Below, in pieces: positions 39,294 through 63,537 of a stretch of DNA of 64,000 bases. A program made the position numbers and the translations under genes. Origin of the DNA: Oceanobacillus kimchii X50 (GTDB lineage: Bacteria; Bacillota; Bacilli; Bacillales; Amphibacillaceae). How positions within the stretch are numbered: position 1 is the first letter of the stretch; every line of letters begins with the position of its first letter. The notes beneath the pieces were generated by a model. That model was not told the origin of the DNA. It saw nothing but the letters and a program-made list of their open reading frames with translations, and made no database searches. The stretch lies in the NCBI RefSeq assembly GCF_000340475.1, contig NZ_CM001792.1:562925-626924 (forward strand), given 5' to 3'.

Positions 39294-39294
39294 G

Positions 39295-39327
39295 AAGGAG
39301 ACACGTTTTTGGTGTTTCCTTTTTTTG
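39295..39327 (+). terminator. Hairpin plus T-run between conG and cwlT
   Basis: 10-bp stem AAGGAGACAC / GTGTTTCCTT with one wobble and a T8 run. Followed at once by GTGAGGTGAA, the same layout as at the conE-conG junction. Confidence 0.7.
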
Positions 39328-39342
39328 TGAGGTGAATAGGGT

Positions 39343-40365: not shown

Positions 40366-40377
40366 GGGTGGAAAAAC

Positions 40378-40866
40378 ATGAAGAAATATTGGGTGGTTAT
40401 TGGTGTATTAGGGGTGTTTATAATTTTTATGATGTTAAATAATAATGAATTAAGAAAAGAGGTGGAAGGGAATACTCAAGAAATACAAGCATTCGAAGAA
40501 TCGGAAGATATCATTTATTATGAGGCAGGAGATGTGGCGAAAGCATTTGTGGAAAATTACTTTAATTATACTGGTCATCCTGTAGAAGATAATGTAATCG
40601 AATTTGTATCAACCGATGTATTAAAAGAATTAAGTTTTGGTTCTAGTGAATATAGTGATGATTTAGAGAAAGTGGAATCAAGTGTTCATCAAATGAATGT
40701 GTACTATGGCGAACAAACAGAAGGAAAACAAAAAGTATTGATCTTGTTTGATAATGTAATTGAACTGAATGATTTGGAAAGTGTAGCAAAAACAATAATG
40801 GAAATAGATGTAGAACAACAGGAAGAAAATTGGAAAGTATCGGAATTTACTTTTAATCAATATTAG
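40378..40866 (+). CDS. yddI: YddI-like ICE membrane protein
   Basis: 162 residues, one N-terminal helix (~4-20) and an acidic extracytoplasmic domain. Located after the cell-wall hydrolase as yddI is in ICEBs1. Function unknown. Confidence 0.7.
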   Translation: MKKYWVVIGVLGVFIIFMMLNNNELRKEVEGNTQEIQAFEESEDIIYYEAGDVAKAFVENYFNYTGHPVEDNVIEFVSTDVLKELSFGSSEYSDDLEKVESSVHQMNVYYGEQTEGKQKVLILFDNVIELNDLESVAKTIMEIDVEQQEENWKVSEFTFNQY

Positions 40867-40929
40867 TTTTGGTATAATAATGGTAAATTAACATTTATTA
40901 GGAGTGGTACTATTCGAAAATACATTCTT

Positions 40930-41325
40930 TTGTTGAGTATGTTTAGTTTCATTTTATTAATTGGATGTTCAGGAGAAGCAAAAGAGAAGACAGAAGAAGA
41001 TTATAATGAATTAGTTGAATTAGCTTTTGAAGATTTTTGGCATAATTTATCAGATAAGATGAAATATGAAATGTATGAAGACGATTTTAATAGTCTTAGA
41101 GATAATTCAGAGATTAAGATTTGGGAAGATGGGAGATATATTGAATTAACTATACCTAGGAAGGATGATGATGAACGTTCTAGTGTAAGTCGTACTGAAC
41201 ATGAAAATGGTGAATTTAGGTTCTTGTATAAGGAAGATTTTGAATTAGCAGTTGAAGGTAAAGATATAGTCTATCAAGAAAAAGAGGGAGAGATTATAAA
41301 ATTAATAAGTCTCTCTCTTTTTTAA
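40930..41325 (+). CDS. ICE lipoprotein in the YddJ (exclusion) position
   Basis: The mature part follows lipobox LIGC. From TTG 40930 the signal peptide lacks basic residues; reading from ATT 40912, 6 nt after AGGAGTGG, gives MRKYILLLSMFSFILLIGC, a textbook lipoprotein signal, so ATT may be the real start. In ICEBs1 the lipoprotein YddJ here blocks entry of a second copy through ConG. Assignment rests on position and lipoprotein nature, not on recognised similarity. Confidence 0.65.
   Translation: MLSMFSFILLIGCSGEAKEKTEEDYNELVELAFEDFWHNLSDKMKYEMYEDDFNSLRDNSEIKIWEDGRYIELTIPRKDDDERSSVSRTEHENGEFRFLYKEDFELAVEGKDIVYQEKEGEIIKLISLSLF
41280..41324. terminator. Terminator between the lipoprotein gene and the restriction gene
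   Basis: AAAGAGGGAGAGATT / AAGTCTCTCTCTTTTTT with an 11-nt loop. Overlaps the end of the lipoprotein gene and marks the end of the conjugation operon. Confidence 0.75.
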
Positions 41326-41337: not shown

Positions 41338-42489
41338 TTATGGGTTCCTATTTTCAAATTCGTCATAGGAACCCATTTCACAAAAGTCAATGGAGTAATT
41401 ATGATCATCATGTTTATGGACAATTACTGAATCTATGTTTAATTTTTCTAGCACATCATATGTTAGTAATTCTTTTTCTTTTAAATTCATAACTTGTCTT
41501 AGTAGCCATTCTCCAAGTGATTTGTTTGGGTTAGACATAAGTGCTTTGCTGTTGTCTTGACATACTTTTGCAGATAAAATTGTTTTATCTGGTAAACGTA
41601 ATTGAAAAGGTTTGTCACGAGGAGGGAAAAACAAGTGATATTCCCTATGAATCCATCTAGGAATTGGTATATATATTTCATTAGGGTTTCTCGTTCGTCC
41701 TGAAGCATTCCATTGGTTAAGTCCACTTTTTTCTGGAACGTGACGTTTTGAACCACGATCTGAAAAAAGCGGTAAAATTATAAATTCCAGATTTTCATAT
41801 GGATTGGCAATTATCGGTTTTGTTTGATTTGGTATAATTTCAAACCCAAATAATTTAGCTAGCTCTTGATAAGGTTTTTCAAGAATTTTGACGTTAATTT
41901 CTTCTATACACTTTTCTGTTATAAATCGTTTATACAAAGTGCTTTTAGTAATGTTAAAACTATATTCATGTAAACCATCTATAAATGATATTGTATTGCC
42001 ATTGTTGCTTACCTTTAAGATTTTTATAGACTCAGCTTGAATTAAGTCCATTGACTCTTCAAAAATCATTATTTTATTTGGTTTTCTAGTTACACAGTGA
42101 TATACCATTGAATCAATGTTATATGTTCTTTTAGTGAACTTGATTCTCTCATTACGAAGATTAGCAATAGTTAATATAAGTTCTTTGGGAGATTTTCCGC
42201 GATATAGATCTGAATCTTTATTAAATTCAGCTATCTTTTGCAATGTCTTTCCATTCCCATGTAAAAAAGTTTTGATTCCGATTCCAATATTGTCTTTTGA
42301 AGCATCAGCAGAACAATCCGATCTTCCAAGGTTATCTGCCCCCAACGCTTCACAAAAAGCATTCTCAACATTTCTTGAAACTAAATAAGGTGAATCGCTC
42401 TCAGAAAATAAATTAGATAAAGAACCTGTTGAGCTAAGCATTTGTTTGTAAGATTCCCTATGTCTAAATGGTTGGTTGTTAAGGAACAT
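41338..42489 (-). CDS. Predicted type II restriction endonuclease
   Basis: 383 residues next to a C5 cytosine methyltransferase and a small XRE regulator, the classic C-R-M layout. The N-terminal part has DNIGIGIKTFLHGNGKTLQK, compatible with a PD-(D/E)XK-type core. The C-terminal part (from about 255: GLNQWNASGRTRNPNEIYIP) resembles the B3-like DNA-binding region of NgoFVII/BfiI-type enzymes. Family assignment is from memory and recognition site is unknown. Overlaps the regulator by one base. Confidence 0.7.
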   Translation of the reverse strand: MFLNNQPFRHRESYKQMLSSTGSLSNLFSESDSPYLVSRNVENAFCEALGADNLGRSDCSADASKDNIGIGIKTFLHGNGKTLQKIAEFNKDSDLYRGKSPKELILTIANLRNERIKFTKRTYNIDSMVYHCVTRKPNKIMIFEESMDLIQAESIKILKVSNNGNTISFIDGLHEYSFNITKSTLYKRFITEKCIEEINVKILEKPYQELAKLFGFEIIPNQTKPIIANPYENLEFIILPLFSDRGSKRHVPEKSGLNQWNASGRTRNPNEIYIPIPRWIHREYHLFFPPRDKPFQLRLPDKTILSAKVCQDNSKALMSNPNKSLGEWLLRQVMNLKEKELLTYDVLEKLNIDSVIVHKHDDHNYSIDFCEMGSYDEFENRNP

Positions 42490-42722
42490 TATTTTTCCTC
42501 CTTTAATGATTTTAAGTTATCTTCAAATCCCAGTAGATAGTCTGCAGAAACATTTAATGTCTCTGAAATTCTTTTAAATGTTTCTAAGGAAGGGACTCTG
42601 TTTTCACTTTCATATAATGACCACGTACTTTTTGTAACACCTACTTTTTTAGCAATATTACTGGATGATAATCCCCGAGTTTCTCTTGCATTCTGTATTC
42701 GATTTCCTAAAAAAGGTATCAT
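42489..42722 (-). CDS. XRE-family regulator of the R-M system (C-protein-like)
   Basis: 77 residues, an XRE helix-turn-helix (SSSNIAKKVGVTKSTWSLYE) starting at ATG 42722 behind GGAGGTG. Cotranscribed with the nuclease and divergent from the methyltransferase, so it can time nuclease expression after methylation. A transcription start region is in 42723-42938. Confidence 0.82.
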   Translation of the reverse strand: MIPFLGNRIQNARETRGLSSSNIAKKVGVTKSTWSLYESENRVPSLETFKRISETLNVSADYLLGFEDNLKSLKEEK

Positions 42723-42938
42723 ATAGCACCTCCAAGATTTTAAAAATATGATATCATTTCGAACTCTTTTAATAGTGACAAGTTTGCTATAAGCAAACAT
42801 ATATCAGAAATATATGATTTGTTAAATTGTAATTTTATAGCTATTCAATAGTAAAACTTACTTCATAAAACTCAGCCGTTATGGTAAAATTTAAGGTAGC
42901 AAACAAGCTTTTTTTAGTTTGCAGGGAGGTAATTAATC

Positions 42939-43952
42939 TTGACTTATCGTGTAGGAAGTATGTTTGCAGGTATTGGAGGAACTTGTTTGGGATTTGCTCA
43001 AGCAGGAGCTGAAATTGCATGGGCAAATGAAATAGATAAAAATGCTTGTATTACTTATAGAAATTATTTTGGGAATTCTTATCTAGAAGAAGGTGATATT
43101 ACTAAAATAGATAAACGTCAAATTCCAGAAATAGATATATTAATTGCTGGTTTTCCATGTCAGGCTTTTTCTATAGCAGGTTATCGTAAAGGATTTGAAG
43201 ATGACAGGGGAAATGTGTTCTTTCAGATATTGGAAGTATTGAAAGCACAGGAAGAAGTGTATGGACATTTACCGCAAGCAATAATGTTAGAAAATGTGAA
43301 AAACCTATTTACTCATGATAAAGGTAATACATTTAAAGTAATAAGAGAGGCATTAGAGACATTTGGGTATTTTGTCAAAGCTGAAGTGCTCAATTCGATG
43401 GAATACGGAAATGTTCCTCAAAACAGAGAAAGAATTTATATTGTGGGGTTTCAAGATAAAAGTCAAGCTGATAGTTTTATTTTTCCAGACCCGATTCCTC
43501 TAACTAATAAACTTGATGATGTAATTGATAGAAGCAAGAAAGTAGACAGTCGTTATTATTACGATGAATCCTCACAGTATTATAAGATGTTAAAGGAATC
43601 TATGGTAAATAAAAATACAACTTATCAATTAAGACGAATATATGTTAGAGAAAATAGAAGCAATGTTTCTCCAACATTAACAGCTAACATGGGGACAGGT
43701 GGACATAATGTACCTCTTATACTTGATAATGAAGATAATATAAGAAAATTATTGCCAGAAGAATGTTTACTACTGCAAGGTTTTCCAAAAGACTATCATT
43801 ATCCAGAAGGTATGGCAAATACGCATAAATATAAACAAGCTGGAAACTCAGTTACCGTTCCAGTGGTAAAGAGAATTGCGACACAGATTATTACGACATT
43901 GAATGGAAAAAAAGAAGAAAATCAAGTATATAAATATATAACTGCCACTTAA
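42939..43952 (+). CDS. DNA (cytosine-5) methyltransferase
   Basis: 337 residues with the C5 motif series: FAGIGGTCLGFAQAG (I), GFPCQAFSIAG with the catalytic Cys (IV), ENVKN (VI), QNRERIYIVGF (VIII) and AGNSVTVPVV (X). TTG start behind GGGAGGT. The variable target-recognition region (~195-265) is short, typical of a 4-6 bp site. Protects host DNA from the neighbouring nuclease. Confidence 0.95.
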   Translation: MTYRVGSMFAGIGGTCLGFAQAGAEIAWANEIDKNACITYRNYFGNSYLEEGDITKIDKRQIPEIDILIAGFPCQAFSIAGYRKGFEDDRGNVFFQILEVLKAQEEVYGHLPQAIMLENVKNLFTHDKGNTFKVIREALETFGYFVKAEVLNSMEYGNVPQNRERIYIVGFQDKSQADSFIFPDPIPLTNKLDDVIDRSKKVDSRYYYDESSQYYKMLKESMVNKNTTYQLRRIYVRENRSNVSPTLTANMGTGGHNVPLILDNEDNIRKLLPEECLLLQGFPKDYHYPEGMANTHKYKQAGNSVTVPVVKRIATQIITTLNGKKEENQVYKYITAT

Positions 43953-43981
43953 CCAACTAAAATGAGTTGGTTTTTTTTTTG
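43951..43981 (+). terminator. Terminator of the methyltransferase gene
   Basis: AACCAACT AAAATG AGTTGGTT followed by about ten T. Confidence 0.85.
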
Positions 43982-44222
43982 ACTGAAACTTTATACCAAT
44001 TTCTTATAGATATTATAATTTTGGTAAATTATTAAGTCATTTAGAGGAGGTGATAACTTAGATTAATTAAGTTTAATTTGGAGAACATAAGACTTTTAAA
44101 ATTAGTATAAATGCATAGCTATACTCTAAAGTAATATCATAGAACCTTTGTATTTCATAGCAGGAGAATTAAAAAATACGTCGAATATAGGTATAAACAA
44201 CTATTTTAGTGGGAGGGTGTAT

Positions 44223-44420
44223 ATGCCTACATTGTTAGGTTCTTACTGGTGTGGTTCTTGCAAAAGTGAATTTGTTTCAAAAGATGGGGTTGTTGTTGGA
44301 GAAGTGCGTACAATGGTACATATCAAATGTGGATTATCCGATAAAGAAAAAGAGATTGATAGAGGATATGTAGAAGATATGATTTTAAAGTATAATTTTG
44401 GGGAGCCTTTTCAATATTAA
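44223..44420 (+). CDS. Small zinc-knuckle protein, unknown
   Basis: 65 residues starting at ATG 44223 behind GGGAGGG. CxxC at WCGSCKSEF and HIKCG could bind zinc. Lies between the R-M system and the Shedu-like gene; may belong to either or neither. Confidence 0.55.
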   Translation: MPTLLGSYWCGSCKSEFVSKDGVVVGEVRTMVHIKCGLSDKEKEIDRGYVEDMILKYNFGEPFQY

Positions 44421-44541
44421 GAATTGATATTATTAATCTTACAGAAGAGTGAGATTGAAAATATATTTCGAGTTATAGTTTCTGAAAATTTTAGTCATTA
44501 TTGTTCACTTGATTTAACGTAATGTAATATGGAGGGGTTCA

Positions 44542-45675
44542 ATGAATCTTATTATTAAATCAACTTCCAGAAACTCAGGTATTGGTGATGATATTATCCT
44601 AAGACAAACAGAGAGTACTAGACTTGTATTTCGACCTGAGATTGTAAACAATACAAGTAACTCTAATGCGTCTATTAAAGGTAGTTTTAATTTTCAAAAA
44701 AAGAGAAAAAATGGGAATTGGGAAGATCATAAGGAGTTTGAGAATAATAAGCTTAGGGCTGATGAATGGATTAAACTTACCATTAATACAGAAGAGACTT
44801 TAAAGCTCTTTAATGAACTAAAGAAATATTATAAAGTACATGAAGAATATGGAGTAAGACAGGGAAGTTATACAATTTATAAAGCTAATCCTGAACTTGA
44901 AAAAATTTTATCTTTGTTTGAGAGTAATAATAAAATATTTACTCAACTTTTAGATGATGACAAGAGTGATGTGTTGGAGAAAACATTAGAGTGGATTGTT
45001 AATAATGAAAACTCTGATAAGATGTTAGACAAACTTAGCAAGTTACAGGGAAATGAGTTAGATCAATTAAATACTCTTGTTGGACTGACTAATCTCAAGA
45101 AATTGTTAGTAATTTGGGAAGCGAACAAAGACAATGATTTAGAGAAGTTTTGGCAAGACTTATTAAAAGAACATACATGGATATTAAGTCAGTTATTTTC
45201 GAACCCTACTGTATTAATTGATAATGAAGTATATGTTGGAGGGAAAACAACTAGCAATGATAATGGTAAGTTAGTTGATTTCTTGTATGCTAACCCTTTT
45301 TCTAAAGATGCTGTTTTGATTGAAATCAAAACACCAACAACTCCACTAATTAATAATGCTCAGTATAGAACAGGGGTATACTCAGCCCATAAAGAGCTTA
45401 TAGGTGCTATTACCCAAGTTCTAACATACAAAGGTGCTCTACAGAAAGAATACTCAAATATACTTGTTAACAATATTAATAATGGTAGAAATACAGAATT
45501 TGATGTAATTAATCCTATTTGTGTAGTCATAGCAGGTAGGTTTGATAATTTAAAAGAAATAAGTCATAAACATTCATTTGAACTATATAGAAAAGAACTG
45601 AAAACAGTAATAGTAATAACATTTGATGAGTTATTTAAGAAAGTTGAAAATTTGATAGATTTATTAGAAAAATAA
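44542..45675 (+). CDS. Shedu-like anti-phage protein (DUF4263)
   Basis: 377 residues. The C-terminal domain (~200-370) has the Shedu/DUF4263 hallmarks: FWQDLLKEHTWILSQLF, LVDFLYANPFSKDAVLIEIK (the PD-(D/E)XK core with Asp and EIK), then the QYRTGVY and GAITQVLTYK stretch. Single-gene Shedu systems are known nuclease defences. The N-terminal ~190 residues are variable, as in the family, and probably sense the trigger. Good GGAGGGG ribosome site. Confidence 0.88.
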   Translation: MNLIIKSTSRNSGIGDDIILRQTESTRLVFRPEIVNNTSNSNASIKGSFNFQKKRKNGNWEDHKEFENNKLRADEWIKLTINTEETLKLFNELKKYYKVHEEYGVRQGSYTIYKANPELEKILSLFESNNKIFTQLLDDDKSDVLEKTLEWIVNNENSDKMLDKLSKLQGNELDQLNTLVGLTNLKKLLVIWEANKDNDLEKFWQDLLKEHTWILSQLFSNPTVLIDNEVYVGGKTTSNDNGKLVDFLYANPFSKDAVLIEIKTPTTPLINNAQYRTGVYSAHKELIGAITQVLTYKGALQKEYSNILVNNINNGRNTEFDVINPICVVIAGRFDNLKEISHKHSFELYRKELKTVIVITFDELFKKVENLIDLLEK

Positions 45676-46533: not shown

Positions 46534-46606
46534 AAAGTTGAATTATGTTACGGAAAGACGAAAATATAGATGTTATCGAAAAAATACAAAATTGTTGGCA
46601 TGAAAT

Positions 46607-46664
46607 GCGGTCAAAAAAGACTTGTAACTGTATAACAAGCTATCTCAATATTGAGGGCTTAGTG
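46607..46664 (+). repeat. att-like unit B (truncated)
   Basis: GCGGTC at 46607, then the palindrome CTCAATATTGAG (46644-46655) and GGGCTTAGTG, aligning with the left two thirds of the units at 48705 and 53510, but the tRNA 3' part (TTCAAATC ... GACCGCA) is missing. Confidence 0.75.
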
Positions 46665-46666
46665 AA

Positions 46667-46770
46667 TTATTGTGATCATCCTTGCTTTGTAAATATTCAA
46701 ATAGTTTTTTACTTTATATAATGAAAAAATGATGTACTTAAACTAATGGGGCAGGATAGTGCAAGAGTCA
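46667..46770 (+). repeat. Copy of the tRNA-Leu right flank
   Basis: About 100 bp (TTATTGTGAT, AAATATTCAAATA, TGTACTTAAACTAA, GGGGCAGGATAGT) matching 55743-55866 with a few gaps. At both places it directly follows an att-like unit, so it is probably the original chromosomal flank, duplicated. Confidence 0.75.
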
Positions 46771-46790
46771 GTTATTAATGAGGTGATTTT

Positions 46791-48512
46791 ATGAAATCTA
46801 ATAAAATAGAAAGTTCTTTAATCGTCGCTAAAAAGCATATCCCTTTTATAGCAACAAAAACTGAGGATGTACTACCGTCAGAATTTGTTGCACGTTTCGA
46901 ACTTTATCCAGAAAATAAACGAAGACCTGTCAACAAAATTTTGTTTAGAAACGATTACTTTCAATTGACATATAGTATGAAGAAAAAAGATTTGGTTATA
47001 TCGTCCAGAGGAGATATTGTCTATTCAGCTATTCCTTATGATACAGCTAGGAACTATATCCAACGTGCAACTATACAGTACTTACTCCATCCAGAAGAGG
47101 TACGAGAGTATATTAAAATGCATAAAGGTAATTTAGAAAAATACATTATGCTTAGTATTTTTCAAGTCACAAAAAAACGTGTTGATAAAAACTCTTTTGA
47201 AGTTAAACAAGCTTATAATGCAATATTTCAAGATCCATTATTTGAGATTCAAATTCTTGGGCGACTACTGCAACATGATGAAACTGGGCCGATTTCTGCA
47301 AATCTAGCAGGTAAGTTCTTGTTTAGTGAGAATGTATACACAGGAATATCTGAGTATATTTTCGAATATCTTAACTTTGTCGTTCAACTTACTAAATCTT
47401 TACCAATAAGAACTGATGGAAAAAGTGTTAAATTATTAGAAACAAATCTTTTAAAGCGATCTTTTACCAATAATAGAACTAAGAATCAGTTTTTAACCAA
47501 TAAATCAGATATAAAACTAGCATTGAGTATAATACCTCAAGTAGAAAAGGTAAATACAGAAAATCCAATCGTGATTGCCAAACAGTCCTTGCATTTAAAT
47601 GATAAGCCGATTTTACGATCCAGGTCAGGGGAAGAAATTTCTCAATTTAGAAAAAAATATATTCCGCATAGTGTTCATCCTAAAGAAGCAGAAAAATATT
47701 TTGAAAATGTTCTTTCAACAGAGAATACAAATTTATTGAATGTTGTTTCTGATGTCCACACTATGGACGGGAAGCTTCCATTCGTTAACAAGAATTTCAA
47801 TATATTGGTAGGGGATATTTCAGATTCTCGTGTAACAAACGAAGATATTAAAGGTATTTATGTAATTGGAAATCATGAATTAGTAGATGTATTGCCGGAT
47901 AATAATAATATAGAAGAACTGCAAGGAAAGAAATGGAGTCCATTTTTGAATAGTGAATGGTTTAAACAACTTTTAGAAAATCCTGATGAGTCATGGTACA
48001 TGTTGCCTGTGGGTAACCATAAATTTTACGAGGTAGTAAAGGTTGAACTTGAAAAAAGATTTCCACAATTAAACGTATTACATAACAATCATATAGTTCA
48101 TGAAGGAGTCCGATATATCGGACTTACAATACCTGTTGCTTTAGTTAAGAGAAAGAAAGAGCAACAAAAATTTATTCTTAAATCATTAAAAAAATTACTA
48201 AACAACGATTATGATATTCCAACAATAATAGTCTCACATGCGCCACTATTTAATGAACTGAGTATGCTTTCAATAAAAAGTAAAGCGTATAATAAGGATT
48301 ACAATTTGTCCGAACCTAAAATTGAAAAATTATTTAAGGAATATAATATAATCGGAGCCATACATGGCCATCACCATATACCAGCGTCATCTGGCCAAAG
48401 CAAAATTGTGAAATTTGCAAGCAAAGAGCTATTTGTGGTGTGCTCAATTTATTCTAAAATGAATACAGGATTCGAGTTAATGAATCTGATAAATCCTAAG
48501 TTAACGAACTAA
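46791..48512 (+). CDS. Metallophosphoesterase with a large unknown N-terminal region
   Basis: 573 residues. The C-terminal ~260 have the calcineurin-like set: SDVH near 320, GDISDS near 342, GNHE at ~360, SHAP near 482 and GHHH near 520. The first ~310 residues match no family I recognise and look mostly helical. The substrate could be a nucleic acid or nucleotide. It sits between att-like units B and C, so it is element cargo or trapped flank. ATG follows GAGGTG. Confidence 0.78.
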   Translation: MKSNKIESSLIVAKKHIPFIATKTEDVLPSEFVARFELYPENKRRPVNKILFRNDYFQLTYSMKKKDLVISSRGDIVYSAIPYDTARNYIQRATIQYLLHPEEVREYIKMHKGNLEKYIMLSIFQVTKKRVDKNSFEVKQAYNAIFQDPLFEIQILGRLLQHDETGPISANLAGKFLFSENVYTGISEYIFEYLNFVVQLTKSLPIRTDGKSVKLLETNLLKRSFTNNRTKNQFLTNKSDIKLALSIIPQVEKVNTENPIVIAKQSLHLNDKPILRSRSGEEISQFRKKYIPHSVHPKEAEKYFENVLSTENTNLLNVVSDVHTMDGKLPFVNKNFNILVGDISDSRVTNEDIKGIYVIGNHELVDVLPDNNNIEELQGKKWSPFLNSEWFKQLLENPDESWYMLPVGNHKFYEVVKVELEKRFPQLNVLHNNHIVHEGVRYIGLTIPVALVKRKKEQQKFILKSLKKLLNNDYDIPTIIVSHAPLFNELSMLSIKSKAYNKDYNLSEPKIEKLFKEYNIIGAIHGHHHIPASSGQSKIVKFASKELFVVCSIYSKMNTGFELMNLINPKLTN

Positions 48513-48704
48513 GAAATTCAATCAATAGAATAACGTGTGCTTTAATTGAAGAAAGTTATAAAAACAAAAATCTTATTGTGAAAAGACGAATGTTAGAAGG
48601 TATTTATTGAATATTGTTCGTATATGAGTTTTATCAAAAATGACCAATAATTAACCAAAATAAATTAAAGTATAGAATAAAATAAAAAACTAATAACATA
48701 AAAT

Positions 48705-48802
48705 GCGATCAAATAGAGGATTTATACCCTATTATAAGTTCTCTCCATATTGAGGGCTTAGTGGGAAATAATCCCGTGGAGGTTCAAATCCTCTCGACCG
48801 CA
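48705..48802 (+). repeat. att-like unit C
   Basis: GCGATC ... ATATTGAGGGCTTAGTGGG ... GTTCAAATCCTCTCGACCGCA: a diverged copy of the tRNA-Leu 3' end with its variable arm and T arm, preceded by the att left arm. Confidence 0.85.
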
Positions 48803-48821
48803 TTTTTATACGAAAGCAGTG

Positions 48822-48856
48822 ATACCAATGGATGAAGTTCCATTGGTATTTTTTTG
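48822..48856. terminator. Terminator copy after att-like unit C
   Basis: ATACCAATGG ATGAAGTT CCATTGGTAT then T7, a repaired-stem variant of the hairpin at 25502. Confidence 0.8.
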
Positions 48857-48908
48857 TATCTATATTGTTTGTAAATAACTTTAGTGTTACTAAAATATTC
48901 ACCAATTG

Positions 48909-49004
48909 CTAAAACAAGCTATCAAGTTGCTCAGCAGTTTTTCGTGTTTGTTCAAAAATAAATGACCATATACATCTATAGTCGTTTTAATAGAAACATG
49001 TCCT
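48909..49004 (-). pseudogene. Integrase 3'-end relic, next to unit C
   Basis: Minus strand reads GHVSIKTTIDVYGHLF, then after one frameshift EQTRKTAEQLDSLF and stop, matching the last 31 residues of the integrase at 25605. The catalytic Tyr is retained but the rest of the gene is gone. Confidence 0.85.
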
Positions 49005-49333
49005 GATATACAAGTAAGTCTCATTGTGATTTTAGTGATTAATAATGAATAGGAGGAATACTCTAAAACATATAACATAAGAAAAATATTACTAATGAAC
49101 TAAGTTTTATTGGTATTTTAGATTTATCTTATTTAAATTGAGCATTATAATTTGATATTTTCCTAGTTTTTCATAAAATAGTATTTTTATACTAGTTTAT
49201 TAGAGATTAATTTTCCTTTTTATCCCATTTAAGGAAACTATTGCAAATATATTCATAGTATTATATGCTTATTTTAGACATATTTCTAAATATTTGGTTT
49301 TATGTCTAAATTAAAAAGAAAAGAGGTGTTAAA

Positions 49334-49540
49334 ATGGGTAATTTGGAATGCTTAGATAACTCTTATACTGAATTGTCAAGCGAGGATATGTATGATGTAT
49401 CTGGTGGACTAGCAATTACTATAGCGGGTGTTACTCTTGTAATTACTGCTAAAGGGCTAGGAATGTTAGCAGGTATAATTGGTGGTACGTATTCTATTGG
49501 TTACGCAATAGGTCAAGGATGGGCTTATATCAAAAAGTAA
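49334..49540 (+). CDS. Class IIb-type bacteriocin precursor peptide 1
   Basis: 68 residues: a 25-residue double-glycine leader (ELSSEDMYDVSGG) then a 43-residue hydrophobic mature peptide (LAITIAGVTL ... GWAYIKK) with several GxxxG-type spacings (GMLAG, GTYSIG, GYAIGQG). ATG follows AGAGGTG. The adjacent C39-peptidase transporter would cut after GG and export it. Recognition is by leader, size and context. Confidence 0.85.
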   Translation: MGNLECLDNSYTELSSEDMYDVSGGLAITIAGVTLVITAKGLGMLAGIIGGTYSIGYAIGQGWAYIKK

Positions 49541-49565
49541 AAAAAGATGAGAGGAGTTTTTGGTT

Positions 49566-49772
49566 ATGGCAGAAGTAATGAAGTTTGATCAATTGAATAA
49601 TGAGTTATCATTAGAAGAAATGTATGATTGTAATGGTGGACTAGCAATTACCATTATGGGGGTAACCTTTGTGGGGTGGAAAGCAGCTGCTATTATTGCC
49701 TCTGGTGTTACAACTTTAGCTGGTGTAGCTGGATTAGGTTTTTGGAATGGCTACAACGGTACTAAAAAATAA
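49566..49772 (+). CDS. Class IIb-type bacteriocin precursor peptide 2
   Basis: 68 residues from ATG 49566 (GAGGAG upstream), with a 25-residue leader ending ELSLEEMYDCNGG and a 43-residue mature peptide that also begins LAITI-GVT. The two peptides share leader and start but differ after about ten residues, which suits a two-peptide pore former arising by duplication. The Cys in the leader is unusual. Confidence 0.85.
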   Translation: MAEVMKFDQLNNELSLEEMYDCNGGLAITIMGVTFVGWKAAAIIASGVTTLAGVAGLGFWNGYNGTKK

Positions 49773-49830
49773 TTTTAGATTATTTGAAAAATAATAGTAG
49801 AAAGTAATATCCTACTAGGAGGATTTCATT

Positions 49831-50025
49831 ATGCTTGAGATTTTCGGCAAAGAATTCAAGTTAGATATTTTAATATTCTCATTTATTTTTATACTTAGTT
49901 TAGGTATTATCTCTTTGAATTTATTATACTTCTTTAAATTTAATTCGAGTTTAATTAATTTAAATATGGGAGCAGGCTTAATTTTGCTTATCTATTCAAG
50001 TTATAAATTATTTATTAAAGGATAA
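49831..50025 (+). CDS. Small two-helix membrane protein, probable bacteriocin immunity
   Basis: 64 residues with two membrane helices (~13-33 and ~45-62). It follows the two precursors and precedes the terminator, the normal place for an immunity gene. No family recognised. AGGAGG ribosome site. Confidence 0.65.
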   Translation: MLEIFGKEFKLDILIFSFIFILSLGIISLNLLYFFKFNSSLINLNMGAGLILLIYSSYKLFIKG

Positions 50026-50056
50026 CTAGGGAAAAATATTTATTTGAATTTATTAG

Positions 50057-50107
50057 AGTGGATTATCAAACTTGCTGAAATGAGAAGTTGATAATCCACT
50101 TTTATTA
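50057..50107 (+). terminator. Terminator between structural and export genes
   Basis: Long stem AGTGGATTATCAAACTT / AAGTTGATAATCCACT with an 11-nt loop and TTTTATT. Partial read-through would give more precursor than transporter. Confidence 0.8.
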
Positions 50108-50146
50108 TCATTTTTATTAAAATGTAATTCAATCTTGGGGGACAAA

Positions 50147-52303
50147 ATGAAATTAAAAAAATATAAATATGTAAAGCAAAAAGATCAAAAAGACTGTGGT
50201 CCAGCTAGTATTGCAACAGTTCTAAAACAATATAACTCTAATGTAAGTATTGCAAAAATAAGAGAAGTGTCGGGAACTTCTGATACAGGAACTAATGCAT
50301 TAGGGATTGTAAAAGGGTTGGAGTATTTTAATTTTAAGGTAAAATCCATAAAAGCTGATATGAATATCTTTAAAGAGAAAGATTTACCTTATCCTGCTAT
50401 TGCTCACATAGTTAAAGATAAACTATTACTTCATTTTATTGTTATTTTAAATGTTGGAAAGAAAAAAATAACAATAGCGGACCCAAGTGAGGGAGTTAAG
50501 AAGTTAACCTATGAAGAATTTGAAGAAATGTGGACAGGAGTTGTATTTTTCTGTCTTCCAAATGATAACTATGAAATGGTAAAAGATAAAAATGAACAAT
50601 TAGAGCAAATTTTTAAAATGATTATTAGTGATAAAAAATTAATAACCCATATAATACTAGCTTCTATACTTGTTATTTTAATTGGGATAGGAACTTCTTT
50701 TTACTTTCAAACTATTATTGACTCAATAATTCCTTCAGGTGCTGAAAAAACACTACATATTATATCTATTGCACTTATAGTATCATATATTTTTCAGTCT
50801 CTATTTGAATATATAAAGAATTATATGCTCGCAGTATTAGGAAATAGGATGAGTATCAAAGTAATGTTGGGTTATTATAGGCATGTAATGAATTTACCAA
50901 TGAATTTTTTTGCTACTAGAAAATCGGGCGAAATAGTTTCAAGGTTTATGGATGCTAGTAAAGTTATAGATGCTTTGGGTAGTGTTGTTCTTACGAGTAT
51001 TATTGATGTTTCTATGGTACTAATTGTTGGTGCAGTTCTTTACTTTCAAAATCAAACTTTATTTTTCGTTACCGTTTTAACAATTCCCATATATGCCTTA
51101 ATAATTTTATCGTTTATAAAATGGTATGAGAAAGCTAACAAACAAGAATTACAAGATAATGCACATTTAAATTCATATATAATTGAGTCATTAAACGGTA
51201 TAGAGACAATTAAAGCTTCACAAGCTGATGAATCATCAGTACGTAAAGTAGACAATTTATTTTTAGTATACATAAATTCTATGATGAGAACTTTTAATAT
51301 AGATAATCTACAAACACTATTAAAGAGAATGATTCAGTTAGTAAGTACGGGAGTTATATTATGGATAGGTGCTACACTAGTTTTAGATAATGAACTTTCT
51401 ATTGGTCAGTTGATAACATTTAATTCTTTATTGGTGTATTTTACTGACCCATTGTTAAATATAATAAATTTACAGCCTAGGTTGCAAACAGCAAAAGTTG
51501 CTGCAGAAAGGCTTAATGATGTGATGATAATTGATTCAGAAATGGAAGAAAACGAAAATAAAAAAATTTCAAATGATATTATATTTGATGGGGATATTGA
51601 ATTAAAAGATGTATCCTTTAATTATCCTACAAGAAGAGAAGTATTAAAAAATATAAACATTAGTATAAGTTCAGCTGAAAAAATTGCTATCGTAGGTAAA
51701 AGTGGTTCTGGAAAGTCTACGTTAGCAAAATTATTAGTTTCTTTTTATAACACAACCAAAGGAGAAATATTGTTTAATAAATACAATATTGAGGATGTTG
51801 ATAAAAACTATCTGAGAAAAAAAATAACGTTAGTACCTCAAAAACCCTTTTTTTTCAGTGGTACAATCTATGAAAATCTTACCTTTGGTATTGACAGAGA
51901 TGTTAACTTAGAAGAGATTGTTGAAGTGTGTAAAAAAGTTCAAATTCATGAATTTATATCTAGTCTTCCTTTAAGATATAATTCTTATCTTGAAGAGAAT
52001 GGAGATAATTTCTCTGGTGGTCAACAACAACGTTTAGCTTTAGCTAGAGCTTTGTTAAGAAAATCTAAGGTTATTATTTTGGACGAAGCAACTAGTAACG
52101 TGGATCAATTCACTGAAAAAAAGATAATGAACGAAATATTAAATGATAAAGATTTGACGATTATAATAATAGCACACAGGCTTTCTATATTAACAAACTG
52201 TGATTCTATTTATGTTATTAAGGACAATATTATTGCTGAGAATGGAACTCATAAGGAATTAATAGAAAAAGGTGGTTTATATTATGACATGTGGAATATT
52301 TAA
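50147..52303 (+). CDS. Bacteriocin ABC transporter with C39 leader peptidase
   Basis: 718 residues. N-terminal C39 peptidase (~1-130) with the catalytic Cys in QKDCGPAS and His in LLHFIVI; ABC membrane domain (~160-440); nucleotide-binding domain (~480-715) with GKSGSGKST, FSGGQQQR and VIILDEATS. It removes double-glycine leaders and exports the peptides. ATG 50147 follows GGGGG. Confidence 0.93.
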   Translation: MKLKKYKYVKQKDQKDCGPASIATVLKQYNSNVSIAKIREVSGTSDTGTNALGIVKGLEYFNFKVKSIKADMNIFKEKDLPYPAIAHIVKDKLLLHFIVILNVGKKKITIADPSEGVKKLTYEEFEEMWTGVVFFCLPNDNYEMVKDKNEQLEQIFKMIISDKKLITHIILASILVILIGIGTSFYFQTIIDSIIPSGAEKTLHIISIALIVSYIFQSLFEYIKNYMLAVLGNRMSIKVMLGYYRHVMNLPMNFFATRKSGEIVSRFMDASKVIDALGSVVLTSIIDVSMVLIVGAVLYFQNQTLFFVTVLTIPIYALIILSFIKWYEKANKQELQDNAHLNSYIIESLNGIETIKASQADESSVRKVDNLFLVYINSMMRTFNIDNLQTLLKRMIQLVSTGVILWIGATLVLDNELSIGQLITFNSLLVYFTDPLLNIINLQPRLQTAKVAAERLNDVMIIDSEMEENENKKISNDIIFDGDIELKDVSFNYPTRREVLKNINISISSAEKIAIVGKSGSGKSTLAKLLVSFYNTTKGEILFNKYNIEDVDKNYLRKKITLVPQKPFFFSGTIYENLTFGIDRDVNLEEIVEVCKKVQIHEFISSLPLRYNSYLEENGDNFSGGQQQRLALARALLRKSKVIILDEATSNVDQFTEKKIMNEILNDKDLTIIIIAHRLSILTNCDSIYVIKDNIIAENGTHKELIEKGGLYYDMWNI

Positions 52304-52318
52304 TAGGTGGGGTATAAC

Positions 52319-53395
52319 ATGGTTGATATAAACTCTATTAAAGTAGAAAGTGAGATATATAAAAAAAAATATAGCAAAACCGGATTAATTATAATCTATC
52401 CTTTTTTAATTTTTATAGTAGTTTTATTATTATTTTTATTTTTAGCTGATAAAGAAGTTTATATAGAAGTACCAAGTAGTGTGAACACTTATAGTTCTAG
52501 TACAGATATTAAATCAAAAGTAGAAGGGGTGGTTCAATCAATTAATGTTAAAAATGGAGATTATGTAGAAGCTGGGGATATAATTATGGAAATAGATTCT
52601 CAGGAAACTAAAGAAGAAATAAAAAATATTGAACAGGAAATAGATCGATTAAATATAGAAAAGAGTAATATTGATAATTTTAAAAAAAGTGTAGTTGAGA
52701 AATCAAACTATTTATCTGAAGATAACATAGAGTTTCAAATCATGTATAATAATTATATAATACAGACAGAAAAAATAACCCTTGAAAACCGTATTTTAAC
52801 TCATAAAATTGAAGAGGTTTCTAATGAGAGTATAGTTGAAGAATATAGACTTCAACAAGAAATTAATAATAAATCTCAGCAAGAGCTAAAATATCAATTG
52901 TTAATAGACTCATTTCAAAAAGAAAAAAATATTATAGAAAAGATTGATGAAAGTTTAAATACATTAAGTGAACTTGAATCAAGAAGAAATAATATGATTT
53001 TAAAGAGTGATGACAGTGGCTATGTTCAATTTAATAATCAAGTTTCAATTGGTTCTCAGATTATGGCCGGAGATGATTTGTATACAATAACAACTAATGA
53101 TAAATCCGAACTATATATACAGGGGTTAGTATCTACAGATAAAATTAGTGCATTGAATAAAGGGCAAAAAGCAAATTTCTCAATTCAAAATAGTATTGAT
53201 AAAGAAACTAATATTGTAGAAAGTGAAATTATAAATATTGGTAAAACACCTGTAACAACTGAAGAAGGTAATTATTATATAATAGAGACGGATATTATAG
53301 AGAATGATAACCTAACTTTAGGCATGACAGGTAATTTAAATATAATAACTGATACCGTTACTTATTTAGATTATTTTTGGAATAAATTATTTTAG
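52319..53395 (+). CDS. HlyD/MFP-like accessory protein of bacteriocin export
   Basis: 358 residues: one N-terminal membrane helix (~20-42), biotinyl-lipoyl-like halves (VEGVVQSINVKNGDYVEAGD and SDDSGYVQFNNQVS), long coiled coil (~95-225) and a beta-barrel end. Partner of the ABC transporter, 15 bp upstream. ATG after GGTGGGG. Confidence 0.85.
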   Translation: MVDINSIKVESEIYKKKYSKTGLIIIYPFLIFIVVLLLFLFLADKEVYIEVPSSVNTYSSSTDIKSKVEGVVQSINVKNGDYVEAGDIIMEIDSQETKEEIKNIEQEIDRLNIEKSNIDNFKKSVVEKSNYLSEDNIEFQIMYNNYIIQTEKITLENRILTHKIEEVSNESIVEEYRLQQEINNKSQQELKYQLLIDSFQKEKNIIEKIDESLNTLSELESRRNNMILKSDDSGYVQFNNQVSIGSQIMAGDDLYTITTNDKSELYIQGLVSTDKISALNKGQKANFSIQNSIDKETNIVESEIINIGKTPVTTEEGNYYIIETDIIENDNLTLGMTGNLNIITDTVTYLDYFWNKLF

Positions 53396-53509
53396 AAAAC
53401 ACGAATAATTTTTGTTATAAATTGTTTTATGTTCGGTTAATTGATTGTCCACATATATACCAAAATATAAATAAAAACGTATTAAATTATATAAAATGGG
53501 TTAATAGAT

Positions 53510-53610
53510 GCGGTCAAATAAAGGATTTGCAACGTATTATAAGGTCTCTCAATATTGAGGGCCTAGTGGGCGTATAGCCCGTGTGGGTTCAAATCCCACT
53601 GACCGCATCT
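53510..53610 (+). repeat. att unit D, likely functional attR
   Basis: GCGGTC (53510) to GACCGC (53601) with the palindrome CTCAATATTGAG (53548-53559). Bases 53555-53610 are identical to the tRNA-Leu 3' end at 25431-25486. A terminator copy follows at 53627-53659. Confidence 0.9.
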
Positions 53611-53664
53611 AAATATGAAATCAGTGATACCAATGGATGAAGATCTGTTGGTGTTTTTTGTATT

Positions 53665-53714
53665 GGAAATAGGTGACTATACACATCTATTGTTGTTTTA
53701 ATATAGAAGTGCCC
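53665..53714 (-). pseudogene. Integrase 3'-end relic next to unit D
   Basis: Minus strand reads GHFYIKTTIDVYSHLFP, matching the catalytic end of the integrase at 25605. Both sides are cut: it joins directly to an sso-like segment. Confidence 0.8.
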
Positions 53715-53723
53715 TTGGTAATC

Positions 53724-53787
53724 GGGGAGGAAAAGATGGAGATCTTTTAGCGTAGCGATTCTTTTTGATAAGAAAGAATAGTATCTG
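53724..53787 (+). repeat. Relic of the post-nicK (sso-like) segment
   Basis: GGAAAAGATGGAGATCTTTT with TAGCGTAGCGAT and the end GTATCTG repeats 31722-31783 of the ICE with small changes. Evidence that a second ICE of the same family once lay here and lost its interior. Confidence 0.8.
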
Positions 53788-53799
53788 AACATAATAGAT

Positions 53800-53846
53800 A
53801 AAAACTCACCTCCCAATCATAAGAGAGATTAGGAAGTAAGTTTTTT
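53800..53846 (-). terminator. Terminator of the methyltransferase gene
   Basis: AAACTTACTTCCTAATC against GATTGGGAGGTGAGTTT on the minus strand, with wobble pairs, then T5. Confidence 0.6.
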
Positions 53847-53859
53847 ATTAACTGATATA

Positions 53860-54774
53860 TTATTTTTTTACAGCATGGATGTAATGAATCGTTTCGAAAG
53901 CAGACAAATAGTCATTGCGATTATGAAAGAATCGATTATTGATCGTAACAGGTGATAAATGTTCATAGATAAGTAAACCTGCATTTTCTAACAATCCCTC
54001 TATTTCATCATAAGTAAAACATGATTTCATTGGCTCACCACTAGCTGAAGCCATTTGAACCATATTTTGCACTCGATTAGACATTCCTTTTTCTTTAAAA
54101 AGTTTTTCATCTGCATAATCAAAAACAATAGAACTTCCAGATGGAATTTTAGTGAATAATTTATCAACCAAGTTGGCAATTTCCTCTTTTGTTAAATAAT
54201 AAGAAACACCTAAAAGACTAAAGAAAGTTCTATGATTATCAAGCTCTTCCTCTATTAGGCTTTGATAGGAAAACTTTTTGGTAAAGTCCATAGGAATAAA
54301 ATGAAGATTACTAGGAATTTTGAACCTAGCTTGATCCAGTTTTTTCTTTTTAAATTCCTGAGTACTTGGATGATCAATTTCAAATATTTCTAATTTGTTT
54401 TTCATTTCTGGATGGCGGAAACAAAAAGTATCTAATCCGGCACCAAGTATGACATATTGCTTTAAACCTAGCCTGACTTCATTAAGTAATACTTTTTCAC
54501 AATACGCAGCTCGTGCCAAAGGTGTTGGAGAAAGTTGAACCTGAGTAATCCATTTTAGTATTTCGTCTGTATCATCTTTAAATTTTTGTGCGATTTCTTT
54601 GTTGAAGAACTGTATGCCTTGAACCATATTGGCTTTGATGTCGTTAAATTCTTTTTGTGAAAATAAATCTTTAGCTAAATAATCATTAAAAATCTTAGGT
54701 GTATCAAATTGACTATGATAAGCTCTACCGAAAGCTGCTATTAATGATGTTAAGCTCGACTCATTTATTTTCAT
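53860..54774 (-). CDS. Class I SAM-dependent methyltransferase (LCMT/TcmP-like)
   Basis: 304 residues of the leucine carboxyl methyltransferase-like family. The SAM site includes VILGAGLDTFCFR and the acidic EIFEIDHPSTQEFKK, with PMDFTK following. Related proteins (B. subtilis YktD type) have unknown or small-molecule O-methylation roles. ATG 54774 follows AAGGAG. A perfect 32-bp palindrome lies in its leader. Confidence 0.82.
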   Translation of the reverse strand: MKINESSLTSLIAAFGRAYHSQFDTPKIFNDYLAKDLFSQKEFNDIKANMVQGIQFFNKEIAQKFKDDTDEILKWITQVQLSPTPLARAAYCEKVLLNEVRLGLKQYVILGAGLDTFCFRHPEMKNKLEIFEIDHPSTQEFKKKKLDQARFKIPSNLHFIPMDFTKKFSYQSLIEEELDNHRTFFSLLGVSYYLTKEEIANLVDKLFTKIPSGSSIVFDYADEKLFKEKGMSNRVQNMVQMASASGEPMKSCFTYDEIEGLLENAGLLIYEHLSPVTINNRFFHNRNDYLSAFETIHYIHAVKK

Positions 54775-54806
54775 ATCACACCACTCCTTCAATTTAAAGA
54801 AATAAA

Positions 54807-54838
54807 AATAGGATTCTCCTGGCCAGGAGAATCCTATT
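54807..54838. repeat. Perfect 32-bp palindrome in a gene leader
   Basis: 16-bp arms AATAGGATTCTCCTGG and its exact complement with no spacer. On the minus strand it is followed by TTTTATTT and then the methyltransferase ribosome site, so it could be an attenuator or an operator. Confidence 0.85.
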
Positions 54839-55052
54839 ATATAATGTAATGTATAAAAAGTAAATTATAGCACAAAATAATTATTTTGTCAAATGATATA
54901 ATCGTTGTTATTTAAGAATCAATAGCAATTGTTGAAGAACATATCAAAAAAATGTTCAAACTTTTTTAATAAAAATTATATGAATTCATACGGAAAAAGC
55001 CATTTTGATCAATCTTTCAAAAGAGTTATTTGAGTTTTCTACTAAAACTTCT

Positions 55053-55469
55053 CTAAAAAACTTCTAGTTGGTTCATAAAATCTATAACGTCAGAGGAAAC
55101 CCAATATTCTTTAATTTTATTATTTTCAATATAGAAAATATCGGTTCCATCAAAGGAAACTAACTTTCCTCTTTCTGCTTTTGCTTCTTCCATTTTACCA
55201 TTATAAACACCTTTAAAATTCCACCGTGCAGAGACATAATTTCCATCTTCTATAGGTTCAACTACAAGTGACATTTTCACATTTTCAAAATAGTCTTTAG
55301 CTGATTCAATAACATCTTTCAAAGCATTTAACCCTTTTGTACTACCTGAATCTTTACCATCAGTTCTAGCTTGATGAACTACACAATTTTCATCTGTAAT
55401 TTGATTAAGAAAAGATATATCTTTGTTCCAAGCATCCATCCAATTTTGATATATTTCTTTTCCGTTCAT
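55053..55469 (-). CDS. SnoaL-like / NTF2-fold protein
   Basis: 138 residues of the NTF2-like superfamily (YQNWMDAWNKDISFLNQI, ending with NNKIKEYWVSSDVIDFMNQL). Such proteins are small polyketide cyclases or scavenging enzymes; the substrate is unknown. Cargo between att units D and E. Confidence 0.75.
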   Translation of the reverse strand: MNGKEIYQNWMDAWNKDISFLNQITDENCVVHQARTDGKDSGSTKGLNALKDVIESAKDYFENVKMSLVVEPIEDGNYVSARWNFKGVYNGKMEEAKAERGKLVSFDGTDIFYIENNKIKEYWVSSDVIDFMNQLEVF

Positions 55470-55639
55470 AAACGAACTCCTTTCTCTCTTTTATATCATA
55501 GATTTTTTGATATCTGAGTCTTACTACCCTTTTTAGCATTATTCATAACATTAATCAACTAATCAATCTTTACATATTAGGCATACACTTATATTTCCTT
55601 TGTGTTTTATTCTTTTAATGCGTAGTACCTTTATGTAGG

Positions 55640-55694
55640 TTGAGGGCTTACTGGGAATTAATCCAGTGGAGATCCAAAATACTTTCGACAGTAT
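55640..55694 (+). repeat. att-like unit E (most decayed)
   Basis: TTGAGGGCTTACTGGGAATT ... CAGTGGAGATCC ... CGACAGTATT aligns with unit C over the tRNA 3' part, with about one change in six. Confidence 0.65.
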
Positions 55695-55742
55695 TTATAT
55701 ATAAAGCGAGTAAAATCAATGGATTGAATCTACTGATTTTTG

Positions 55743-55866
55743 TTATTGTGATTATCCCATATTTTTAAATATTCAAATATATTTTTGCTTTGATATAATG
55801 ATAATATGAAGTAAAAAATGTGAAATAGTGTACTTAAACTAAAGGGGCAGGATAGTTCAATAATCA
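55743..55866 (+). repeat. Putative chromosomal flank of tRNA-Leu, second copy at 46667
   Basis: TTATTGTGATTATCC ... TTTTTAAATATTCAAATAT ... GTGTACTTAAACTAA ... GGGGCAGGATAGTTCAA, colinear with 46667-46770. Confidence 0.7.
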
Positions 55867-57400: not shown

Positions 57401-57666
57401 TGTAAGAGTGAAATAATAAAATCATCAAATTGATGATTTTTATTTTTGGGGATAAATGTATAGAATATTATGAAGTGACAAAGGTCTTGTGCTAACGGGG
57501 CAGGATAGTTGAACAAGGAGTGAGCTATTAATCAATAATGGTTATATTCAATATTCAAACATATGATTGGACAATCAATGAAAGAGCTTCAACATTCGTC
57601 CATTTATTGTTCGGCAGGAGTTCACAGATATGGAAGTATAGAAATTATAAGATTAGTCCGATAAAT

Positions 57667-57784
57667 TTTATTCCACTTATTAAAGCTTTTTTAATCTGAT
57701 CGAAAAGTTTCTTTATCTAGATTAGATTCATCAAGATAGATGAGGGTCATTACCATTTTGTACTACCATAACTACTTCACTCAA
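57667..57784 (-). pseudogene. immR 3'-part relic
   Basis: The plus-strand sequence TTCTTTATCTAGATTAGATT with CATCAAG and GGGTCATTACCATTTTG matches 27340-27460 inside immR, colinear over about 115 bp. No helix-turn-helix part remains. Confidence 0.75.
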
Positions 57785-57916
57785 TAGTAATTATGAATAC
57801 TGTGTATCAGAAAATGGAATAAAATCAAGCCTTGAAAAAGAACGTGCGTTCCCTTTTATTTGTATCTAGAAAGCTTATAAATGAAATAAATTCGTCTGAA
57901 AGTAGGTTGGTATACA

Positions 57917-59332: not shown

Positions 59333-59409
59333 AAGAGTCTAGGTTTTTATTGCTGATGTTCTAAAATGAGGAATAGAAAGTTTACTCGGCCTTATAAAGC
59401 ATACATCAC
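59333..59409 (+). pseudogene. yddA-like relic
   Basis: GGTTTTTATTGCTGATGTTC ... AAAGTTTACTCGGCCTTATA AAGCATA matches 32738-32815 of the ICE gene, with small indels. Confidence 0.75.
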
Positions 59410-63536: not shown

Positions 63537-63537
63537 T

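Follow-up and report, generated by a model that had tools for sequence, protein, structure and literature searches.

The split tRNA operon and its attachment sites

The window analysed here, 64,000 nucleotides of the one-contig, 3.83-Mb genome of Oceanobacillus kimchii X50 (G000:C1:562925-626924), contains a tRNA operon whose two halves stand 38.0 kb apart, measured from tRNA-Leu(GAG) to tRNA-Arg, and an integrative and conjugative element (ICE) of the ICEBs1 family that begins within the tRNA-Leu(GAG) gene (25400-25483). The region is very probably an accretion island, in which one complete-looking ICEBs1-type ICE and at least four decayed relatives lie behind a single tRNA-Leu, and whose inserts have together moved tRNA-Arg-Pro-Gly-Ile 38 kb away from it. 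The operon halves and the five attachment (att) sites, designated A to E, are the following.

24583..25483, + strand: upstream half of the tRNA operon, Asn-Ser-Glu-Asp-Gln-Lys-Leu(GAG) (ARAGORN, Rfam)
25431..25483, + strand: site A, the tRNA-Leu(GAG) 3' half as attL core, with a TTGAGGG crossover spacer (self-comparison; 17-bp attB described for ICEBs1)
46605..46664, + strand: site B, ICE right arm and 14 bp of core (TTGAGGGCTTAGTG), truncated (self-comparison, local alignment)
48703..48859, + strand: site C, right arm, full 53-nt core with 13 mismatches to the tRNA, terminator (self-comparison, local alignment)
53508..53663, + strand: site D, right arm, 53-nt core identical to the living tRNA, terminator (self-comparison, local alignment)
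55640..55724, + strand: site E, decayed core and terminator, no right arm (80% to C over 86 bp)
63460..63803, + strand: displaced tail of the same operon, Arg-Pro-Gly-Ile (ARAGORN, comparison with relatives)

Self-comparison of 24-64 kb recovers the sites pair by pair, with similarities of 91% over 116 bp between A and D (expect value 3e-40), 80% over 157 bp between C and D (1e-33), 71% over 273 bp between A and C (2e-31), 80% over 86 bp between C and E (5e-12), 82% over 62 bp between B and D (1e-8) and 74% over 93 bp between B and C (1e-7). To set the chance level, the 38-kb island was shuffled 30 times by single bases and scored by local alignment; the maxima were 25 for the tRNA core, 25 for the C core and 32 for the D arm. 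The tRNA core scored 106 at D and 47 at C; the C core scored 58 at E, 49 at D and 28 at B (14 bp only, and barely above the maximum); and the D arm scored 54 at C and 45 at B, its next-best match in the island reaching 28. The four att-like units B, C, D and E are real, all of them above chance. Aligned ungapped over 53 nt with the living tRNA, the tRNA part has no mismatch in D, 13 in C and 23 in E, which differs from C at 17 positions; B retains TTGAGGGCTTAGTG alone and stops after 14 bases; and B and C have GGGCTTAG in common. B, C and D have similar right arms, to which the ICE right ends of four other genomes can also be aligned, though with a weaker likeness (seven sequences). The similarity between E and C extends into the terminator, and E is thus an ICE left end too.

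The first-pass annotation of this DNA had described a pile-up of five attachment sites at one tRNA-Leu, decaying from a perfect D through a diverged C and a truncated B to a barely alignable E, and an arm common to B, C and D. The positions of all five sites, the grades of decay and the common arm, which is the right arm of the ICE, hold in the self-comparison and the shuffle-tested scores, and B, C and E are indeed similar to the 3' end of the tRNA, a likeness on which that account had been staked. Where it fell short is in extent: the inserted region had been taken as 46.6-55.9 kb. In relatives tRNA-Leu is directly followed by tRNA-Arg, so that all 38 kb count as insertion, and, judged from this gene order, the insertion runs from 25484 to 63459 and separates two halves of a single tRNA operon.

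Across the genus, tRNA-Arg follows tRNA-Leu(GAG) after 24-69 nt in 16 of 28 genomes (15 of these spacers were measured by script and that of G001, ~26 nt, was read from the same output; the gene order in G001, G007, G024 and G027 comes from DNA matches, and in the other genomes also from ARAGORN). An island of 6.7-46 kb occupies the junction, on one contig, in 10 of the 28, with the following tRNA-Leu to tRNA-Arg distances.

G000, 38.0 kb
G002, 25.0 kb
G003, 24.0 kb
G008, 27.8 kb
G009, 44.0 kb
G010, 6.7 kb
G013, 38.9 kb
G015, 46.0 kb
G019, 36.9 kb
G020, 39.3 kb

Of the remaining two genomes, G026 has no tRNA-Arg within 19.5 kb and G006 has a contig edge at the junction. The same split is found outside the genus in G177 (35.7 kb) and in G168, a Virgibacillus (~20 kb). 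Remains of the 3' end of the integrase gene (int) lie within ~150 nt behind tRNA-Leu in G015, G019 and G020; in G003 an ICE attR stands 25 nt before tRNA-Arg; and the islands of G002, G008, G009, G010 and G026 all have left-end similarity beyond the tRNA itself. The closest relative at the locus, G010, which has no ICE here, shares 57756-58560, parts of 60544-61388 and 63242 onward, and none of B to E; the comparison with sister strains that had been proposed as a check therefore gives no sign that the layout is ancestral in an ICE-free strain.

Rfam found tRNAs only. Searched with the tRNA-Leu gene, the whole genome gave five matches (that gene, D, C, 20 bases of E and an unrelated 15-base match), and thus no second full-length copy of tRNA-Leu(GAG) by direct DNA search. 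The Rfam tRNA list, 48 genes from 150 scored of 233 candidates, holds no Leu(UAG), Leu(UAA) or Leu(CAG) and is therefore incomplete; L171 had none.

One property of the right arms (46605-46650, 48703-48749 and 53508-53554) may be noted in its own right, namely that they are partly complementary to the tRNA 3' half (GCGGTCA with TGACCGC and GGATTTG with CAAATCC in D). Folding of arm with core is far better than with shuffled arms in B, C, D and G168 (z -3.5 to -7.1; none of 200 shuffles each), the G168 fold lying mostly within the arm. In G177, G003 and G013, unlike B, C and D, z is -0.7 to -1.5, and the likeness of right arms to tRNA mimics stays an observation.

The resident ICE and the blocks behind it

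The DNA from A to B (25431-46651) has the make-up of an ICEBs1-family element.

25605..26735, - strand: tyrosine integrase of the ICE (Pfam PF00589/PF14659)
27308..27709, - strand: ImmR-like helix-turn-helix (HTH) repressor (Pfam HTH_3), its name resting on its position between int and xis
27972..28172, + strand: excisionase, NCBIfam ICEBs1 Xis equivalog (NF047858, 100.5 bits, cut-off 100)
28590..41325, + strand: conjugation backbone, with DUF961, FtsK-like ATPase, Rep_trans relaxase, TcpC, TcpE, VirB4-like AAA_10, CD3337/EF1877 membrane protein and lysozyme/M23 wall hydrolase (Pfam, NCBIfam)
31872..32471, + strand: cupin cargo, in a slot between the relaxase and open reading frame (ORF) 32693 that is common to the D-E block (Pfam)
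41338..45675, no strand assigned: ICE defence cargo, with type II restriction endonuclease, HTH protein, C5 methylase and Shedu SduA (Pfam, PADLOC)

An ICEBs1-type Xis, just over its cut-off, adjoins the ImmR-like repressor and int; Rep_trans relaxase, FtsK-like coupling ATPase, TcpC, TcpE, VirB4-like ATPase and wall hydrolase are all present; and CTAGG-TTGAGGG-CCTAG in tRNA-Leu forms a 17-bp core with 5-bp inverted repeats and a 7-bp spacer, the arrangement reported, in the part of the source consulted, for the ICEBs1 attB (PMC3715440). Considered as a possible ImmA-type protease, the 113-aa ORF at 26759-27100 between int and the repressor matched no Pfam or NCBIfam family. A scan of genome contigs with Int confirmed two loci. 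As a side observation, the restriction-modification set and the Shedu gene (41338-45675) sit close to the right end of the ICE.

Behind B the island breaks up into blocks that combine cargo genes with scraps of ICE sequence.

46667..46773, + strand: left-flank sequence common to the flank of E (72% over 127 bp to 55743-55869)
46791..48512, + strand: block B-C cargo, a 573-aa metallophosphoesterase-like protein (Pfam PF00149)
48923..49081, - strand: integrase C-terminal remnant after C (tblastn, expect value 4e-7)
49334..53395, + strand: block C-D cargo, with two short double-glycine peptides, a peptidase/ABC exporter and a secretion accessory protein (NCBIfam, Pfam)
49334-49540 and 49566-49772: the two C-D peptides, class IIb bacteriocin-like (first, TIGR03949 below cut-off; second, no family match)
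53646..53787, - strand: int 3'-end remnant 53646-53714 joined to a piece at 53726-53778 that corresponds to ICE 31721-31772 (blastn, tblastn)
53860..55042, no single strand assigned: block D-E cargo, with an LCM-type methyltransferase at 53860-54792 (- strand; Pfam) and a piece at 54929-55042 like ICE 32518-32634 (blastn 70%, expect value 2e-5)
55053..55469, - strand: SnoaL-like cargo (Pfam)
57660..57787, - strand: immR remnant with broken frames (79% over 118 bp to 27338-27454; tblastn 3e-7)
59333..59407, + strand: remnant of ICE ORF 32693 (79% over 68 bp; tblastn 2e-5)

With the exception of B-C, all distal blocks include scraps of ICE genes or sequence from the ICE interior, the last being recognised at 59.4 kb and none in 59.4-63.4 kb. 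Int 3'-end remains extend behind the terminators for 59 alignment columns at C and for 23 to 50 at D, and the order in D-E, a post-relaxase ICE piece, the methyltransferase in the position that the cupin holds in the living ICE, and a post-cupin ICE piece, is that of an ICE with exchanged cargo. Block C-D fits a cis-mobilizable element (CIME): it has the C core with truncated int on its left and the D arm and core on its right, its tested ORFs being bacteriocin-type and free of integration or transfer genes (the exporter scores over the TIGR01193 cut-off, the accessory protein below that of TIGR01000). B-C has a complete C end and a B core reduced to 14 bp, and D-E has the D left end. The block beyond E, with no right arm or core before 63459, is for that reason better described as an ICE remnant than as a CIME. 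The stacking of ICEBs1-family elements with partial deletion and with cargo between att scars, as initially proposed, is thus borne out by the att units, the int and immR scraps and the cargo genes. What that proposal had right were the sites and the cargo; it overlooked the int 3' remains after C and D, the nature of E as an ICE left end and the scraps up to 59.4 kb, so that D-E and at least E to 59.4 kb are not cargo alone but themselves contain ICE remains.

Three smaller features of these blocks deserve mention. The DUF1569 gene behind E (55907-56356) looks like cargo, since its homologue in G014 (84%) lies on a different contig from the tRNA-Leu of that genome. A repeat, CTAANGGGGCAGGATAGTT, occurs at 46740-46773, 55836-55869 and 57489-57522, just upstream of a gene at two of the three places; these are the only good copies in the genome, one with three mismatches lies elsewhere, and partial copies are scattered in other genomes of the genus and family; CTAANGGGGCAGGATAGTT was considered as a possible mark of a cassette system. 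Finally, ICE-internal 28521-28569 matches the C right end (expect value 2e-6), a match left unused because the same query has a chance match in reversed sequence at 5e-6.

Probable order of insertion and rival histories

How might so many ends have come to lie behind one tRNA gene? From the homology, order and end structures of the sites and the empty sites in relatives, all directly seen, we infer the following succession. The tRNA-Leu(GAG) 3' half, inside the tRNA operon, is the attB of ICEBs1-family elements. The ICE (25431 onward) would have integrated first, into a host-type tRNA, giving A and D; with D as its original right end, A and D would carry the identical host-type core that they have. 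Two relatives with other cores would then have recombined into the right attachment site of the ICE, giving B and C, and these elements would have lost their integrase and transfer genes while retaining their ends and cargo (the phosphoesterase and the bacteriocin locus). D-E contains older ICE deletion derivatives, as does at least the DNA from E to 59.4 kb. B and C most likely entered the attR of the resident ICE, not the tRNA, and A to D most likely forms a 28.1-kb composite; B and C look inserted at attR because the A/D core is identical and lineage-specific and theirs is of another type. Within three mismatches the A/D core occurs in 2 of 159 family genomes, G000 (A and D) and G010, and the nearest to the C core in a comparison of seven cores is the type found in G005, G017 and G025 (four mismatches). 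For B and C, the first-pass notion of repeated insertion into the same tRNA gene is on these grounds probably wrong.

Independent stacks of a similar kind are found in other genomes. In G013 the left end is matched at 2041, 27957 and, in its terminator part only, 38345, and the right end at three places, further left-end rows being the intact int and a dispersed repeat; these matches read as a 25.9-kb ICE followed by two remnants, of which the second stops 18 nt before tRNA-Arg. In G168, with two right and two left ends, a 19-kb ICE is accompanied by a remnant of 1.1 kb, the right-end match of which stops 45 nt before tRNA-Arg; a second core is present in G015 and G026. In 124 kb of control DNA there were six left- or right-end places at an expect value of 1e-3 or less and two at 1e-5 or less (a homologue of E's cargo gene in G014 and a chance match in reversed sequence); the places named in the G013 and G168 stacks are all below 1e-10. 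In G003 and G013, moreover, a second int 3' end is present, and 5-6 kb of cargo separate attL from it and from the intact int; this looks like a tandem pair that fused when the att between its two elements was lost.

Serial insertion at the tRNA itself, with newcomers pushing older elements outward so that distance equals age, is unlikely, even if it accounts for the farthest site, E, being the most decayed and agrees with the DNA beyond E, which is partly shared with G010 and indeed marks the distal end as the oldest. It requires, however, that the tRNA 3' half changed from D-type into C-type and B-type and then reverted to exact D-type (53/53), a type restricted, within three mismatches, to G000 and G010 among the 159 genomes. 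Less probable again is tandem duplication by homologous recombination between att repeats, with no fresh insertions. The left flank that B and E have in common speaks for it (elsewhere 46667-46773 finds partial matches only, in the 159 family genomes with five candidates scored per genome), but duplication should yield like blocks, whereas the cargo differs from block to block, 13 mismatches separate the C core from the tRNA, and divergence among the three sites with an arm is 18-26%. That the units are decayed copies of the tRNA-Leu gene is very improbable: C and D do hold the full 53-nt 3' half, and the arms of B and D start with GCGGTC as the tRNA 5' end does, yet the 5' halves are non-tRNA and align with the ICE right ends of G168, G177, G003 and G013 (seven right ends), and terminators and int remains follow C and D.

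Several observations weigh against accretion through the attR of the resident ICE. Gene conversion between the tRNA and D could be an alternative source of the A/D identity. An intermediate stage, for instance a strain whose ICE A-D lacks B and C, did not turn up: allowing one mismatch at most, the right-end pattern matched the window's own genome and none of 57 relatives (58 genomes searched in all). Local alignment detected no recognisable right arm before E in D-E and no further right arm or core beyond E up to 63459, and B-C, which has no int remnant, is linked to the ICE family by its two ends only. ORFs of the window's ICE had no match at an expect value of 1e-6 or less in the islands of G002, G008, G009, G010 and G026 (for G026, in the first 19.6 kb), so that the hotspot is not demonstrably ICE-made everywhere.

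A looser right-end search, allowing three mismatches in the 159 family genomes, matched 10 genomes, and a backward control pattern matched 5, which puts this looseness near chance. Among the 10, G000 is the window, G003, G013, G168 and G177 have real right ends at this site, and the matches in G002, G089, G100, G101 and G102 looked like chance and were set aside. A search of the 159 genomes for the C core at up to three mismatches returned the window itself only, and no donor is named.

Known systems, excision and the orphaned tRNA genes

In B. subtilis the ICEBs1 target stands at the end of its tRNA operon, whereas here it lies inside one. Composites such as ICESt1/CIME302 at fda are familiar from Streptococcus. 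As far as the consulted parts of the sources go, ICEBs1 of Bacillus subtilis (in trnS-leu2) is a single element of ~20 kb (PMC3715440), in contrast to the stacked relatives described here, and at tRNA-Lys of S. salivarius and S. agalactiae decayed elements with att ends lie in tandem with ICEs or integrative and mobilizable elements, an accretion proposed to arise by integration into attR, with S. salivarius composites of two or three elements (PMC5704250, PMC7563491). The present island resembles those streptococcal CIMEs in its decayed elements with att ends and cargo, in their tandem arrangement with an ICE and in the attR integration proposed for both. It differs in integrases and targets, in combining one ICE with at least four decayed units, and in its split tRNA operon, of which the sections covered of PMC7563491 and PMC5704250 make no mention for Streptococcus. 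Among the matches listed, titles and abstract openings on accretion, ICEBs1, ICEs or islands in tRNA operons and Oceanobacillus ICEs describe no split tRNA operon with stacked ICEs. Accretion itself is known from streptococci; what is new here, within the reach of those sources, is the ICEBs1 family, the depth, the cut tRNA operon and the ICE ends beside orphaned tRNAs. ICE/CIME accretion is thereby extended from streptococci to the ICEBs1 family, with several stages of cargo capture side by side, from intact through eroding to lost att sites, and with cores that label host-type and element-type junctions. Since the Leu-Arg junction is occupied in 10 of 28 genus genomes, species can be compared for what a severed tRNA operon costs and how that cost is borne.

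What might serve the orphaned tRNA-Arg? Just upstream of it lies one promoter-like sequence.

63413..63441, + strand: TTGCAT-17-TACAAT with TG before the second hexamer (read by eye; 8 of 12 consensus positions)

This sequence is absent from the list of a stricter promoter scan. In all eight contiguous genomes with spacers of 60-69 nt the spacer contains a TTG-type hexamer, 17 nt and a TANNNT preceded by TG, an arrangement not seen in the eight with spacers of 24-44 nt, of which G025 has another 9/12 match. Among the split genomes the arrangement precedes tRNA-Arg in 8 of 10, the window included and G003 and G013 excepted; for G000, G002, G008, G009 and G010 it was read by eye, the script's best pair being another register. 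ICE right ends before tRNA-Arg, in both cases without an att core, contain TTGACT-17-TATTAT (10/12) in G013 (L168), where the middle copy's spacer has lost two bases, and TTGAAA-17-TATTAT (10/12) in G168 (L093 ~15629-15800). That ICE right ends or spacer promoters may serve the orphaned tRNA-Arg is a lead, drawn from consensus matches in few genomes with no shuffle control.

Excision gives these arrangements a possible consequence. If Int works, A x B would release a circle of 21,220 bp and, since B breaks off 14 bp into its tRNA part, strip the only tRNA-Leu(GAG) of all but 14 bases of its 3' half. Joining A to C (23,319 bp) or to D (28,124 bp) would leave a whole tRNA-Leu, and we infer that Int may still be able to do so, releasing a composite of 23.3 or 28.1 kb with cargo. 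Loss of the corresponding B. subtilis gene, trnS-leu2, is tolerated at the price of slower growth, the gene being non-essential (PMC3715440, in the part consulted). It is conceivable, as a tentative reading, that ICE stacking splits the tRNA operon and then makes ICE and host mutually dependent, the Arg-Pro-Gly-Ile tail being rescued by a spacer or ICE-end promoter and the eroded B making clean ICE loss cost the only tRNA-Leu(GAG), which would leave composite excision with cargo as the sole harmless route. If that were true, erosion of an att site would turn accreted cargo into ICE cargo.

Within the upstream half of the operon, finally, the stretch between tRNA-Gln and tRNA-Lys (25089-25300) begins like the 5' start of a tRNA-Lys and continues with ~200 nt of non-tRNA sequence, and a similar sequence is present in G010.

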